Shown in pieces: positions 3,121 through 60,459 of a DNA stretch of 64,000 bases (the stretch's first letter is position 1; each line of letters opens with the position of its first letter). The position numbers and the translations under genes are program-made. The stretch is from the NCBI RefSeq assembly GCF_001262075.1, contig NZ_CP012073.1, forward strand, positions 372,001 to 436,000, in the 5' to 3' direction. The notes under the pieces were generated by a model that was not told where the DNA came from, ran no database searches, and saw only the letters and a list, made by a program, of their open reading frames with translations. This DNA comes from Ottowia sp. oral taxon 894 (lineage in GTDB: Bacteria; Pseudomonadota; Gammaproteobacteria; Burkholderiales; Burkholderiaceae_C).

Positions 3121-3202
3121 AAGCCCGCTTAAAGACTGCGGCTCATGGCCCGCGCGTCTGTGCCTGTGCGACGCACCGCGCGGGCAGACGGCATCGAAAA
3201 AG

Positions 3203-3280
3203 AGAGCGAATTCAAGCGGCTGAAAATACCGTTTCGCGCAGTCCCTCCTAGGACATGACGCTATGGATAAAGGAGCAAAA
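3203..3280 (+). repeat. Repeat A, copy 1
   Basis: Starts GAGAGCGAATTCAAG, contains CCGTTTCGCGCAGT and CTAGGACATGA, and ends AAGGAGCAAAA. The layout is the same as the other copies, with near-direct GGAGC repeats at both ends. Confidence 0.75.
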
Positions 3281-10200: not shown

Positions 10201-10366
10201 AAGGTTGTCCAAAGTCTGCCCGTGGCTGCGGCCAGTGCGGACATGGCGGTCTCAAGGCGCTGTGCGGCGTTGCAAATCCTTGCCGGGCCACAAAAGCAGT
10301 CTGCGCCTTGCAGCCCATTTCGAACCGCACTTTCGCCCCTTGCGGCCAGACTTTGAACAGGTTCTG
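10201..10366 (+). repeat. Repeat B, copy 1
   Basis: Contains the family core GCGGCGTTGCAAATCC, then GCCGGGCCACAA, then GCCTTGCAGCCCAT, and ends TTTGAACAGGTTCTG. The left end is more diverged (AAGGTTGTCCAAAGTCTG). Confidence 0.75.
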
Positions 10367-10385
10367 AGAAGAAGAGGGCTTGTTT

Positions 10386-10462
10386 TCGCTCCTCTATTCA
10401 TAGCATGAGGTCCTAGTGGAAATTGCGCGAGCGGCGTTTTCAATCGCATGAATTCGCTCCTG
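10386..10462 (-). repeat. Repeat A, copy 3
   Basis: Read on the minus strand it starts AGGAGCGAATTCATG, contains CACTAGGACCTCATGC and ends AGGAGCGAAA. Confidence 0.85.
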
Positions 10463-10528
10463 TTTCTGAAGCAGGCGCATGATCTGGCGTGCCTGAGCGG
10501 CGTTGCCGGGCGGTGTTGCTGAGCCGTG

Positions 10529-11704: not shown

Positions 11705-12014
11705 GGAGACGCTCCTTGAAAAGTGAAGCCGTCGGCGCGCTAAAAATGCGCGCCCAGCTCAAATGCCAATGCAAAACGGCCCCAGCAGCGGGGCCGTTTC
11801 AGGCGGATGGCGGCATTTTAGAAATGCCGGAGCGCGCCTTGCGGCTTCAGGCGGCAGCAAGGCGCCGCACGCCTTGCAAGCGCCCTGCCAGAGCCAGTGC
11901 GGACCCGGGCGTGGATGTTGCAAATCTTCACTGGCTCACGAGACCCGTCTGCGGTTTGCTGCCCCGGTTTGCACTTTCGCCCCTCATGGCCAGGGCCAGA
12001 CCATGAACAGGTTT
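11705..12014. other. 310-base interval between the symporter and adaptor genes
   Basis: Contains repeat B copy 2 and, beyond it, the apparent terminator of the symporter gene. No ORF with coding character. Confidence 0.6.
11773..11799 (-). terminator. Terminator downstream of the SSS symporter gene
   Basis: AAACGGCCCC and GGGGCCGTTT pair around AGCAGC, and the minus strand continues TTTTG. It is about 215 bases from the symporter stop codon, separated by repeat B copy 2. Confidence 0.75.
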
Positions 12015-17843: not shown

Positions 17844-18085
17844 CATGGTCATGCCGCTTTGACGAAAAGCCTGCCTGCCTTGGAAAAGCCTGCCTGCCTT
17901 GTCTGAATCGCGGCAAACCCAATCCGCGCCCAGGCTGCATGCCCGTTTGCCCTTGGACTGGTGCTGCCGTTTCCTGCTCCATCAGCTGCTCATGGCTTGG
18001 CTGCAAACGGCAAAAAACGAATTGGGTTGGTTGAAAAATGAGCGCGGCATGAACGATAAAACTATGCTGATTGGACGGCATTTTT

Positions 18086-18163
18086 AGCTCCTTAATTCAT
18101 AGCATGATGTCCTAGTCAAAAATGCGCCAGTCGGTATTTTGACCCCCTTGAATTCGCTCCTGT
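18086..18163 (-). repeat. Repeat A, copy 4
   Basis: Minus strand: AGGAGCGAATTCAAGGGGG, then ACTAGGACATCATGCTATG, ending AAGGAGCTAAA. Confidence 0.9.
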
Positions 18164-18285
18164 TTTTGTTAGTCCCTGGCAAGCGAAAGATGAACCAGAA
18201 GCCCCCTTCGCCCGCCAGCCGCCCTGTGTTTCGATGTAGCCGCTTCGGCGCCTGCCCATCGGGCGGACGAAGAGCTGACAGGCTT

Positions 18286-25731: not shown

Positions 25732-26050
25732 GGCGCGCGCACTATAGCCAACCAGAGAGCCAACCAGGGAGCCAACCGTGAACCGGCCAGCGCCCGCCGC
25801 GCGCGGCAGCAAAAAACGCCGCGCGCGAGCGGCTCATGGAGCCAGCCTGGCCCATCTCAGCGCCTGTTTGCCATCTGTCCGCAGGCGCAGGCCGCGCATG
25901 GGCAAGGCTGAACGTTCAGCCGCTTTTTCGCTCCGCTATCCATAGCATGATGTCCTAGTGAAAACTGCGCTGAACGGTATTTTTACCCACCTGAATTTGC
26001 TCCTGTTTTCGTGAACAAATTCTGATGCCGTCTGGCAGGCTGGCCTTTCC
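25732..26050. other. 319-base interval between the PerM-like gene and the NERD-helicase gene
   Basis: Holds three 12-base units with core GAGCCAACC (about 25746-25780) and repeat A copy 5. No gene. Confidence 0.5.
25928..26006 (-). repeat. Repeat A, copy 5
   Basis: Minus strand: AGGAGCAAATTCAGG, then CACTAGGACATCATGCTATG, ending GCGGAGCGAAA. Confidence 0.88.
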
Positions 26051-30579: not shown

Positions 30580-30668
30580 GGGCGGAATTATCCGGACTGC
30601 CCCTGGCGCGCAAAGAAAGCAGCGGAAAGCACGGAGCCGCCATGCAGAGCCGGACGGCAGGCTTCTTT

Positions 30669-30745
30669 AGCTCCTGATTCAATAGCATGATGTCCTAGTG
30701 GAATAAGAGCGGGCGCCGATTTCGACCCTCTTCAATTCGCTCCTT
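30669..30745 (-). repeat. Repeat A, copy 7
   Basis: Minus strand: AGGAGCGAATTGAAGAGGG, then CACTAGGACATCATGCTATTG, ending AGGAGCTAAA. It lies between purN and trmL. Confidence 0.85.
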
Positions 30746-30873
30746 CTTTTGAAGATATGACGCCGCGCCAGACCAAGGCCGTCATGCCCCTTCGCGCCCT
30801 CCGCTCCTTTCACCCAGCATGCCCCGGGAACCTGCTCATGAGCAGGGCCTGAACAGGCGCTTTGAGCAGCTTC

Positions 30874-31335: not shown

Positions 31336-31421
31336 GGCGCGAATTGTCCGCGCGCCGCCTGTCCGCAAGAGCAGCCAGCAGACCTGATTGAACGCGCAGG
31401 GCTGGACAATCAAGAATGATT

Positions 31422-31499
31422 CGCTCCTCAATCCATAGCACGGTGTCCTAGTAGAAACTGCGCGAAACGGCATTTCATACCCCTTGAATCTGCTCCTCT
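31422..31499 (-). repeat. Repeat A, copy 8
   Basis: Minus strand: AGGAGCAGATTCAAGGGG, then CTACTAGGACACCGTGCTATG, ending AGGAGCGAA. Confidence 0.87.
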
Positions 31500-31553
31500 T
31501 TTCGAGGCTTACGACGATGGCGCGGGGCAGTTGAATGCCCCTGCCCAGCCATG

Positions 31554-40592: not shown

Positions 40593-40757
40593 GAGGCTGT
40601 TCGCTATCTGTTGATGGCGCGAAAAGCATGGACCCGGACCTTCCTGCTGCATTGCAAATGCCTCGTCCGGGTCACAAGATCCATCTGTGATTTGCGCCTG
40701 GCCGCCCAACCTGATCTGCCCACTCGCCCCGTGCGGTCAGATCATGAACAGGCTCTG
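40593..40757 (+). repeat. Repeat B, copy 3
   Basis: Starts GAGGCTGTTC, contains GCATTGCAAATGCC and ATTTGCGCCTGGCC, and ends ATGAACAGGCTCTG. The dut start codon is 5 bases beyond its right end, so the dut leader is made of this element. Confidence 0.8.
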
Positions 40758-40761
40758 AAAA

Positions 40762-41208
40762 ATGAAAATCGACATCCGCATTCTTGACGGGCGCCTGCGC
40801 GCGCAAATGCCCGCCTACGCCACGCCGGGCAGCGCCGGGCTGGACTTGCGCGCCTGCATCGACGCGCCGCTCACCCTGGCGCCTGGCGCCTGGCAGCTGG
40901 TGCCCACCGGCATGGCCATGCACCTGGCCGATCCGGGCTACGCCGCGCTCATCCTGCCGCGCTCGGGGCTGGGGCACAAGCACGGCATCGTCATGGGCAA
41001 CCTCGTGGGCCTGATTGACAGCGACTACCAGGGCCAGCTCATGGTCAGCGCCTGGAACCGCAGCGCCACGCCTTTCACCATCGAACCCATGGAGCGCATC
41101 GCGCAAATGGTCATCGTCCCCGTGGTGCAGGCCACGTTCAACGTGGTCGATGCTTTTGCCGCCAGCGAGCGCGGCGAAGGCGGCTATGGCTCCACGGGTC
41201 TGAAATAA
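40762..41208 (+). CDS. dut: dUTP diphosphatase
   Basis: The protein is 148 aa, the normal length for the trimeric enzyme. It hydrolyses dUTP to dUMP and so keeps uracil out of DNA and feeds thymidylate synthesis. The five motifs are in order: [42 protein letters not shown] and the C-terminal [10 protein letters not shown]. The start has no clear ribosome-binding site because repeat B copy 3 ends directly before it. Confidence 0.97.
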
Positions 41209-41871: not shown

Positions 41872-41967
41872 GCCCTGATTTTTTGAAGCCGCCCGCTTTC
41901 AGCGCCATTGCGCGCCACGCAAAAAGCGGTTGCCCGCTGCCCTGCCCTGCCGGATTGCATCAGAAAC

Positions 41968-42044
41968 AGGAGCAAATATAAAGGGCATGAAATACCGCCT
42001 CGCGCAGGTTCCACTAGGACATCATGCTATTGATACAGGAGCGA
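41968..42044 (+). repeat. Repeat A, copy 9
   Basis: AGGAGCAAATATAAAGGG, then CGCGCAGGTTCCACTAGGAC and ATCATGCTATTG, ending CAGGAGCGA. The two GGAGC are 69 bases apart. Confidence 0.88.
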
Positions 42045-42246
42045 GTTGCAGCCAATTCCCTCTTGCGTCATGGCCACGCAGGCCGCCCGCTGTCTCGTGT
42101 GGACGCTTCGCCCATTGAAAAGGCGGGGGCAGGAATGAATAAACAGGCTGATTCACACAGGCGCGCGCCTTCTTCCCCACTCCGCCTTGCCTTGCCCTGC
42201 CCTCTCACAGTCAGGCCACGAACAGGGGCCGGAAAGCATCAAAAGA

Positions 42247-42324
42247 AGGAGCAAATTCAATGGGGTCGAAATTTCGTTCTGCACAGTTTCTACTAGGACC
42301 CAATGCTATGAATCAAGGAGCGAA
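42247..42324 (+). repeat. Repeat A, copy 10
   Basis: AGGAGCAAATTCAATGGGG, then CAGTTTCTACTAGGACC, ATGCTATGAATC, ending AAGGAGCGAAA. The two GGAGC are 69 bases apart. Confidence 0.9.
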
Positions 42325-49326: not shown

Positions 49327-49771
49327 GTTTTCAGGGCGGGTTTCATGGTTCTTTCCGGTTTGGCAGTGATTAAGCAGCCCGGAATGAAAAAAATCGCTCC
49401 CAGGCCATATCGCAAAGGCGGGCATCCGGCTTTCGCTTGCGCTGCATCGCAAGCGCCTGGGCCGCAATGCCCCTCAGAAAAACCGGTGATGCGCGGGTAT
49501 TTTCCTGCGGTTTCAAACGAAGCTGCCAGCGCGAGGCAGCGCCCGCCCCGCAGGGACTGGCCTTGTGCCGCCAGCCAGAGCACATTAAAAACAGGAGCGA
49601 ATTTGAGAGGACGAAACCCCGCTTCGCGCTCTTTCCACTAGGACCTATTGCTATGAATAGAGGAGCGAAAATCTGCCTATTCCTCCGCCTTGCTCCGCCC
49701 GGCGAGGGTTCGCCGCACGCCGCACCCGGAGCCACGCTTTTTGCGCCCACAGACGAACTTTGGGCAGGTTT
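49327..49771. other. 445-base interval between trpF and the PLD-family gene
   Basis: Contains repeat A copy 11 and a short repeat B end fragment (about 49735-49775). No gene. Confidence 0.55.
49592..49670 (+). repeat. Repeat A, copy 11
   Basis: AGGAGCGAATTTGAGAGG, then TTTCCACTAGGACCTATTGC, ending AGAGGAGCGAAA. Confidence 0.88.
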
Positions 49772-49775
49772 TCAA
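49735..49775 (-). repeat. Repeat B end fragment
   Basis: TTTTTGCGCCCACAGACGA and TTGGGCAGGTTTTC resemble the last 40 bases of repeat B (compare 60420-60459). The rest of the element is not seen. Confidence 0.4.
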
Positions 49776-50655
49776 AGCACGAGATCTTCCGGCCACAGGA
49801 AATAGGCGCCAAAGCGGCCCGTTTTGAATTGCCCGCCTGCTTTTTTGCCTTGTTCGGTCAAAAAGTGTTTGTCGTCGCGCCATTCCAGATAGCCCGCAGC
49901 GGTCAGTTTTTCGAGCATGGGTTCTGTTTTCATTTTGTGTTTCTGGGCCAGCTTGGAGGTGGTCAGCAGGCCGCTGGCGTTTTCGGATTTTTCATCGTCT
50001 TCATGATGGGCAGCGGCCTTGGGCGCGGGGTGCGCGTCTTTTTCCACGACTTCAAGGGAAATGCGCACTTCTTCGCTGATGCGAATCAGGCGTTGGGCTT
50101 CTTCATAGGCATCCTGATAAAGCTGGTGATCATTCTGCCGTTCAATGAATATGCCCATTTCATTGTTGTTAATCTGGCTGAAGCTGTATAAATTGAGGCT
50201 GCCGATGATGCAGGCGTTTTCGCTCAGGTAGCACTTGGCATGGAGATTATTGCAATAGCTGGTGCGCACGTATTTGAGATTGCGCAGCCATTTGACTTCT
50301 TCGGGGTGCAAATCGGCTTTGCCGTAAATGATGCGGACGTCGATTTTGAGCCTGTCTTTGTCTTCCAGCAGTTCGCGAATCCGGTCATTGAGTTTCAGAT
50401 AGGGGCTGATGATGATGAGGCGATCCCGCGCGCCCTTGATGATTTCTTCAAGGTGGTAATTAATTCCACTAGTATTGAGAACCTGTTCACAATCTGTCCG
50501 TGGGTGCGAAAAGCGCGGAATCGGGCGCTCTGCGGCGTTGCAAATCCTCGCCGGGCCACAAGGCCCGCCTGCGGTTTGCGCCTTGCAGCCCATCCCGATC
50601 CACACTTTCGCCCCTCACGGCCAGATCATGAACAGGTTCTGAGGAATTTAGCCAT
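49772..50655 (-). pseudogene. PLD-family protein gene interrupted by repeat B
   Basis: The body codes for a phospholipase-D-like protein: HAKCYLSENACIIGSLNLYSFS has the HxK...GSxN signature, in a single copy; the end is GRFGAYFLWPEDLVL. The natural start lies at 50655: codons for MAKFL (50655-50641) are followed at once by repeat B (about 161 bases), and the frame resumes at 50476 with NTSGINYHLEE. From MAKFL translation meets a TGA 12 bases into the repeat. A fused frame can instead begin inside the repeat at 50605 (277 aa, GTG start), adding about 45 repeat-coded residues. The normal protein may thus be lost or made with a different N-terminus. Single-HKD proteins of this kind may cut nucleic acid or lipid; the role is not known. 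Confidence 0.85.
50477..50643 (+). repeat. Repeat B, copy 4, inside the PLD-family gene
   Basis: The best-preserved copy. Ends are GAACCTGTTCA and TGAACAGGTTC, roughly 45 bases at each end are inverted repeats of each other, and the centre is GGGCCACAAGGCCC. On the coding strand of the host gene TCA is present on both sides, consistent with a 3-bp target duplication. Confidence 0.92.
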
Positions 50656-51588: not shown

Positions 51589-51757
51589 GAGCGCCTGTTC
51601 ATGACCTGGCCGTGAGAGGCGAAAGCTCGCGCATCGGGATGGACTGCAAGGCGCAAACCGCAGACGGGCCTTGCGGCCCGGCGAGGATCTGCAAGGCCCA
51701 CGGGCGCCCAGCGCCGCGCCTTCTGCACCCACGCGCAGATTGCAAACAGGTTCTGAG
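51589..51757 (-). repeat. Repeat B, copy 5
   Basis: GAGCGCCTGTTCATGACC at the left and GCAAACAGGTTCTGAG at the right. The core (TGCAAGGCGCAAACCGC) is reversed relative to copies 1-4. Confidence 0.85.
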
Positions 51758-56745: not shown

Positions 56746-56775
56746 GCTAGGCAAGCCTTGGGCATTCTGTTATTT

Positions 56776-56853
56776 CGCTCCTTTTCCAATTGCACGATGT
56801 CCTAGTGGAAAGGGCGCGAAACGGCATTTTGACCCCCTTGAATTCGCTCCCGT
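56776..56853 (-). repeat. Repeat A, copy 13
   Basis: Minus strand: GGGAGCGAATTCAAGGGGG, CCGTTTCGCGCCCTTTCC, ACTAGGACATCGTGC, ending AAGGAGCGAAA. It sits between the convergent creA and tex. Confidence 0.92.
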
Positions 56854-56959
56854 TATTGATGTCATCTGGCAAGCCGTGAGCAGGCCATCAATTCCAGAAG
56901 CGCCGAAGGCCGCTTGCGCACCGTGAATGGCAAGGCGGCTGCTTTGCGCCTGGGCCTGG

Positions 56960-60113: not shown

Positions 60114-60456
60114 TTTGTGAACCTCCATGAGTCACGAATATTGAAAACATGAGGCCAAGGCGGGCTGTGCCTCTGGCGCCATGACCGCCTGAGCCAAATC
60201 AAAATTCGCGCAGGCAAGTGAAGAAAATTATAGGAACGCCCTTGATTGCAGCGCCTTTTTGGGGTAGCAAAATGTGTCACTTGGGCGTGCCGCTAAAGCC
60301 TGTCCGCATTCCGGCCGTGAAGGGCAAAAGTGCAAATCGGGTTGGGCTGCAAGGCGTAAACCACAGGCAGCTGTTGCGACCTGGCGAAGATTTGCAAGAA
60401 CCACGAGCGTTCAAGCCCGTGTTTTTCGCGCCCACGAACGGATTGTGAACAGGCTC
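60114..60456. other. 343-base interval between two minus-strand genes
   Basis: Contains repeat B copy 6, whose right end directly abuts the stop codon of the next gene. No ORF of its own. Confidence 0.55.
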
Positions 60457-60459
60457 TTA
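60294..60459 (-). repeat. Repeat B, copy 6
   Basis: TAAAGCCTGTCCGCATTCCGG at the left, core GGGCTGCAAGGCG, right end ATTGTGAACAGGCTCTTA. It overlaps the TAA stop of the hypothetical gene at 60457. Confidence 0.82.

Follow-up and report, generated by a model that had tools for sequence, protein, structure and literature searches.

The window, a 64,000-nucleotide stretch of the genome of Ottowia sp. oral taxon 894, contains a 161-nt non-autonomous element that has inserted close to the start of a PLD-like gene. On balance, the element is read here as a type II MITE mobilized by an IS5-type transposase, and as one member of a superfamily in which a constant folding core is joined to interchangeable ends. 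What is unusual is this modular superfamily, rather than the PLD insertion itself.

The element and its insertion site

The features of the insertion site, all on the minus strand, are as follows.

50641..50655, minus strand: original codons 1–5 (MAKFL) with AAGGAG upstream; today a 9-codon reading frame that stops at a TGA (50626)
50640..50642, minus strand: upstream TCA copy of the target duplication (reads TGA on the plus strand)
50479..50639, minus strand: non-autonomous element (type II MITE), 161 nt, with IS5-like ends GAACCTGTTCA...TGAACAGGTTC
50602..50639, minus strand: left arm, 38 nt, end and spacer stem, mostly complementary to the right arm
50603..50605, minus strand: GTG within the element, in frame with the PLD part, GAGG 7 nt upstream
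50515..50601, minus strand: conserved bulged-hairpin core, 87 nt, matching model R1 (see below) at 94.5 bits; common to order and class
50479..50514, minus strand: right arm, 36 nt, mostly complementary to the left arm
50476..50478, minus strand: downstream TCA copy of the target duplication (reads TGA on the plus strand)
49772..50476, minus strand: PLD-like gene from codon 6 to the stop, open; PF13091

The element (50479-50639) has TCA at either side and splits codons 1–5 from the remainder of the gene, giving the order AAGGAG-AAATC-ATG-GCT-AAA-TTC-CTC, element, AAT-ACT-AGT (NTS...). The fifth codon, CTC, closes at 50641 and NTSGINYHLEE restarts at 50476. The original prediction of an exact join between codons 5 and 6, a 3-bp target duplication (TCA at 50640-50642 and 50476-50478) and inverted ends is borne out, the ends being a perfect 11-nt pair. 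It had also allowed that the PLD consensus might lack MAKFL at this point, which is not the case. Codons 6 onward were searched against genome contigs, and in the 71 relatives matched the five residues preceding the homologous position are MAKFL in 51, VAKFL in 4 and LAKFL in 3, with MSKFL, MADFL, MAEFL, MARFL and KVKFL found once each and 8 not assessable. [M/V/L]AKFL therefore stands immediately before the homologous residue in 58 of the 63 assessable relatives, the VAKFL and LAKFL variants being alternative starts. The site is a well-proven, ordinary MITE insertion.

The net gain at the site is 164 nt (element plus TCA duplication), which equals 3n+2. The natural PLD start is thus lost twice over, through the TGA inside the element that had been pointed out before (50628-50626) and also through a frameshift that had been overlooked. 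From the GTG at 50605 a frame of 277 aa runs on into the PLD part; an ATG at 50593 is likewise in frame, and both starts lie within the hairpin stem. The chimaeric start proposed at this GTG is accordingly possible rather than demonstrated. No promoter or terminator was found around the insertion site.

The PLD-like remainder matches PF13091 (E=1.4e-11) and falls far short of the NCBIfam DrmC model (22.8 bits, cut-off 133); in PADLOC it best matches PDC-S69 (E=6e-14, C-terminal part), with DrmC models next (E=8e-7 at best). At 64 positions that are near-invariant in 54 full-length relatives the window protein deviates once (I for L; leave-one-out range 0–8) so that, judged by its sequence and apart from its lost start, it shows no sign of decay. 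The recent movement claimed for the element is in part upheld: target duplication and ends are both preserved and the interrupted gene is undecayed, but the nearest scored copy is merely 93% identical. No same-species empty site was found in 60 genomes (own included, mostly members of its genus, family or order) searched with the PLD protein; own genome aside, just two of these matched it, both partially.

The assignment as a small, non-coding, non-autonomous element of type II, as predicted in outline, is based on the perfect ends with mostly complementary arms, the TCA duplication, and ends, but not interior, that are common to autonomous IS. The IS concerned are one with similar ends in another genome of the genus (G013) and two with the same ends as the MITEs of their own genomes (G073 and G213). 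The interior in common with an IS that would mark a type I MITE (simple IS deletion derivative) was not seen. The whole element folds far better than its shuffles (z about -10), the hairpin reaching -106 kcal/mol. A known RNA family is rejected as its identity, as no Rfam match reached gathering at the element, in the window or in nine relatives. Matches that did were confined to three tRNAs elsewhere in the window and, in the relatives, a tRNA lying outside the element; the best match at the window element (13.1 bits) is sub-threshold, as are the remaining hairpin matches in the relatives. A phage origin was likewise rejected, a phage match having been looked for and none found. Exact patterns do occur in two viral contigs, and the core is present in four plasmid records.

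Copies and partner transposases

The window element gives 46 matches in its own genome, four of which are places already matched on the opposite strand, so there are at least 42 distinct copies; with 40 of 234 candidates scored, the closest is 93% identical. The half-end GAACCTGTTCA, with one mismatch at most, occurs 244 times as opposed to 18 for a reversed control. This repetition is far beyond chance. Further, more decayed copies within the window are seen at 51633-51754, 60299-60457, 10256-10368, 11904-12013 and 40667-40763, and at G000:C1:1444233-1448644 four copies lie less than 4.5 kb apart in total (93, 83, 85 and 90% identical). Thirty own-genome copies were fetched, of which 21 have both ends readable. 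Five of these 21, window copy included, have identical flanking 3-mers (TCA, TCA, TGA, TTT, TCA), and five of 21 have TNA on both flanks.

Another repeat family is dispersed through the window, its copies about 100 nt long and lying in either orientation, at 49589-49671, 3191-3279, 18083-18184, 25926-26027, 30666-30767, 31419-31520, 41948-42044, 42234-42324, 56773-56874 and 10383-10465 (the 49609 copy reads CACTAGGACCTATTGCTATGAATAGAGGAGC).

The IS in G013, a genome of the same genus, is an IS5-type element of about 847 bp with ends GA[AG]CCTGTCTACGATCT. The TNA triplets either side of it are identical at all four copies fetched (TTA, TTA, TAA, TCA); there is a fifth copy besides these four. 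The partner search in the own genome returned 14 matches to PF01609, all checked for ends, and 24 to PF13340, 20 of them checked. Among these 14 and 20 loci there is no intact autonomous partner with element-like ends, and none of the 20 PF13340 loci has paired ends. Paired ends are present only at locus L125 (AGAACGTGTTCA...TGAACACGTTCT, TTA/TTA), where the transposase is incomplete. In place of the full-length transposon with the same ends that was to be looked for in this genome, the loci checked yielded a single degenerate transposase copy, the ends of which are similar. Positions 341-1989 of L125 are a composite IS remnant, the left end of which is an inverted copy of the transposase gene's right end, with an unrelated 181-aa frame in between. 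What is shown directly is the ends, the TSD and the exact join of the window element and, in another genome of the genus, an IS that has similar ends and follows the same TSD rule. The family is IS5-mobilized in type; a working partner was not found in the own genome.

Distribution of the core

Matches to the element occur in 21 of 29 genomes of the genus (own included) and often cover only query positions of about 37-126, because in the alignment the middle is conserved and the ends are not. The same core is found between quite different ends, such as AGGCGACGCTGAATAAG (G023), GGGAACCTCTGCATAAG (G016), GAACGTGTTCAC (G002) and, in a Cupriavidus plasmid element, GGACCCTCTGCACGAATC.

A model (R1) was built from 22 cores and used for genome searches. 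Counting the own genome in both cases, it detects the core in 95 of the 300 genomes searched from the order and in 53 of the 274 from the class, which represent 56 of 135 and 46 of 222 genera, respectively. Most genomes (205 of 300 and 221 of 274) have no match at threshold. The core is also present in seven of 28 named genomes: Neisseria sicca, Alysiella crassa, Aromatoleum toluclasticum, Thiohalocapsa halophila, two Comamonas MAGs and one Burkholderiales MAG. None of the six genomes tried from Acinetobacter and Pandoraea (three each) has it. The own genome has at least 65 core matches at E<=0.01 (150 of 4900 candidates scored); such copy numbers are lower bounds since matches were only partly scored per genome. 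All six of the class-search loci examined (L358-L363) have the core and inverted ends at a usual length.

On contig 47 of G022 two core elements (L121, 1405-1667 and 2561-2830) lie within a dense tRNA array, in which ARAGORN finds 12 tRNA genes. By our own reading at least the first of them seems to split a tRNA-like gene close to the anticodon loop.

Structure of the core and geometry of the elements

The core, read from the best 80 of 110 matches (78 different sequences), has the form GCaAGGCGcaAanCGCaG-[variable stem]-GCgAGgntTtGCAACGccGC. Its invariant sequence is located at the bulges and in one short stem, while the tip and the other stems vary with pairing kept. In a MAFFT alignment of the 22 cores, made without structure, 94.1% of cells are paired in the RNAalifold consensus of that same alignment as opposed to 31.9-37.2% in slid controls, and double changes occur at 14 of 23 pairs compared with 5.1 in shuffles.

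The geometry was followed in a convenience sample of 65 core-bearing elements, several of them from related genomes (66 before L260, with too little flank, was left out). Inverted ends were sought without model R1. A strong pair (score>=28) is present in 54 of the 65 elements and at 6 of 171 decoy positions, leaving 11 elements without strong ends; at a cut-off of 24 the figures are 54 and 18, and at 36 they are 43 and 0. The 54 elements fall mostly into two length classes, of 160-182 nt (32 elements) and 265-292 nt (17), with five aberrant lengths of 190, 193, 195, 363 and 367 nt. The left arm measures 35-45 nt in 48 of the 54, and the core is usually about 39 nt away from an element end. Of the 17 long forms, 13 have a detected second core in the opposite orientation, each core then lying 35-43 nt from its end with 17-29 nt between the two; of the other four, one has a partial second match and three have none. 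Within this convenience sample each end therefore usually lies some 39 nt from a core, in short forms with one core (about 165 nt) as in long forms (about 268 nt) that mostly carry two inverted ones.

End types and partner IS

Single-linkage clustering divides the strong-end elements into 16 end clusters, the largest of which chains together 29 IS5-like ends, so that some ends counted as different may be related. Another cluster contains CTAGTGTACTG-type ends, which we take to be IS630-like. Among ten genome/end combinations with PF01609 loci, only two (G073 and G213) have an IS whose paired ends match; G002 has a single matching end and the other seven have none. The G073 IS is 1170 bp long and has identical flanks at each of three copies (TTAG, TGAG, CTAG). 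That of G213 is 857 bp long and has CTAG either side at two of four copies. Both have an open transposase frame and the same ends as the MITEs of their own genome, the similarity being confined to about 18-21 nt. The core was not found in 14 IS loci (E<=0.1 sought; best E 0.13).

Strand asymmetry in the arms

A foldback that matters in single-stranded form is expected to have arm mismatches of the G.T rather than the A.C kind on the strand concerned. The five elements of aberrant length were left out of this comparison (54 to 49), as was L304, the arms of which are the same as another's, leaving 31 one-core elements and 17 long forms. On the core strand the one-core elements have 79 G.T and 25 A.C mismatches (p=1e-7); taken singly, 22 favour G.T and four A.C, with five ties. 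The long forms have 16 and 25, respectively (p=0.21), the strand being largely arbitrary here as most carry a core on either one. Grouped into 17 end types, drawn by eye from the end sequence and not from a phylogeny, G.T is favoured in 12 and A.C in three, with two ties (p=0.035).

In the core alignment of 22, by our own count and with the dominant T.G pair left out, the two mismatches are about equal (G.T 13, A.C 10), and hence the strand signal rests on the arms. A count on the model-fitted alignment, 109 against 19 with a single pair contributing 55 of the 109, was judged biased and discarded. The G.T excess in the arms points to a selected single-stranded fold and is the best evidence for RNA or single-stranded DNA as the selected form. 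By eye, the left arm of several unrelated end types has one or two unpaired A residues about 12-15 nt ahead of the core (for example at 50615 in the window).

Interpretation

In the mechanism that we propose, a presumed IS5-type transposase recognizing GAACCTGTTCA-like ends would move the element in trans, duplicating 3 bp (TNA). Insertion would cut the PLD coding region off from its start codon and ribosome site, add a stop and a frameshift, and leave the PLD message with a highly stable hairpin at its 5' end. The PLD gene is probably silenced, or weakly expressed via re-initiation at GTG 50605. We read the core strand as folding in single-stranded form under selection. Most likely a host factor binds the folded element, be it RNA or single-stranded DNA, and would either make insertions tolerable through RNA processing or assist transposition by whatever resident transposase recognizes the arms. 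The occurrence of the hairpin core in elements with very different ends suggests a reusable mobile module. Its modularity, covariation and near-constant geometry are demonstrated for the convenience sample; function and mechanism are inferred.

A more ordinary history would be that of an IS5 relative which lost internal sequence and multiplied in this genome, the core reflecting mere shared ancestry and having no function. The IS5-like ends, the TNA duplication and the many decayed copies would all fit, but the same-end IS have only their ends in common with the MITEs and lack the core, which is itself conserved with covariation while the ends differ, CTAGTGTACTG types included. Element geometry and strand asymmetry also count against this history, and we regard it as unlikely. 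The core could instead act as a site at the DNA level, a cruciform or protein-binding palindrome that aids synapsis or target choice, the single-stranded form being irrelevant. Such a role would agree with the nearly constant distance of about 39 nt from core to end in short and long forms, the inverted cores of the long forms, and the near equality of G.T and A.C within the core alignment. Strand-biased arm mismatches in the one-core forms are unexpected from double-stranded selection alone, and the proposal is held to be rather unlikely.

At the PLD locus itself, the insertion might have been exapted, the gene being functional with a new element-derived N-terminus that starts at GTG 50605 or ATG 50593. 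Both the 277-aa open frame, with GAGG 7 nt ahead of the GTG, and the 63 undecayed positions of 64 are compatible with this. Yet both starts are buried in the stem of the -106 kcal/mol hairpin and an undecayed gene is equally expected from a young insertion, which makes exaptation improbable. That the arrangement is an assembly artefact, or an old repeat unrelated to the PLD gene, is scarcely credible given the exact join with its TSD, the one-contig genome and the N-terminus of the relatives; no point in its support was found.

The preferred reading, a type II MITE with a constant folding core and interchangeable ends, can be extended to a proteobacteria-wide, transposase-agnostic superfamily. 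A single-strand hairpin would here be re-fitted with the ends of resident IS (IS5-type, IS630-like and others), its core about 39 nt from each, and a host-facing function would aid its spread. This extension is put forward tentatively, as somewhat less probable than not.

Relation to known elements

Correia elements (NEMIS) of Neisseria are MITEs with inverted repeats and a conserved core that is bound or cleaved by RNase III; their target duplication is TA and they are confined to one genus. They thus have other ends and another TSD than the present elements, in which one core occurs under many end types. IS5-family IS (PF01609) resemble the MITEs at the ends, the window element having ends and a TSD similar to those of the G013 IS, and the G073 and G213 IS matching their own MITEs. 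Unlike the MITEs, they encode a transposase and are without the core.

Type II MITEs are defined as shorter than 500 bp and non-coding, with inverted ends, a TSD and a stable foldback (PMC10969869). The present elements agree with that description in size, inverted ends, TSD, lack of coding and foldback, as well as in ends common to IS around an unrelated interior (PMC10969869). They depart from it in an interior that is conserved across many genera while the ends change, in having two length classes, and in being mostly GC-rich and not AT-rich.

The BRE (Beta-proteobacterial repeat element) was described in 2011 as a dispersed repeat of about 90 bp with signs of past mobility, in Bordetella, Polaromonas, Delftia, Acidovorax, Comamonadaceae, Azoarcus and others; its average GC content is 69% in Bordetella, and transcripts were seen at one locus (PMC3110155). 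The stretch of BRE conserved across genera matches the 87-nt core in size, and hosts and GC content fit. In the accessible sections BRE is partly in tandem arrays and is described without terminal repeats or TSD (PMC3110155). As the ends differ, a cross-genus comparison would reveal the core alone. By description only, then, we guess that the 87-nt core is probably BRE. The limits, ends, structure and spread past Betaproteobacteria reported here go beyond the BRE account as far as it could be consulted. Among the papers found only PMC3110155 was relevant to BRE. The core sequence strings were not found in the papers searched, nor was any account of one core in MITEs with different ends, in a literature coverage that most subscription papers lie outside.

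The finding bears on the origin of type II MITEs and the persistence of their interiors, questions that become testable with elements of differing ends and mostly two lengths around a core whose sequence and structure are conserved in many genera. Should BRE prove identical to the core, that unexplained repeat would be tied to transposition. Annotators would gain a means of recognizing such elements regardless of their ends and, if the transposase-agnostic reading is true, the identity of the parasite would be the hairpin and not the ends.
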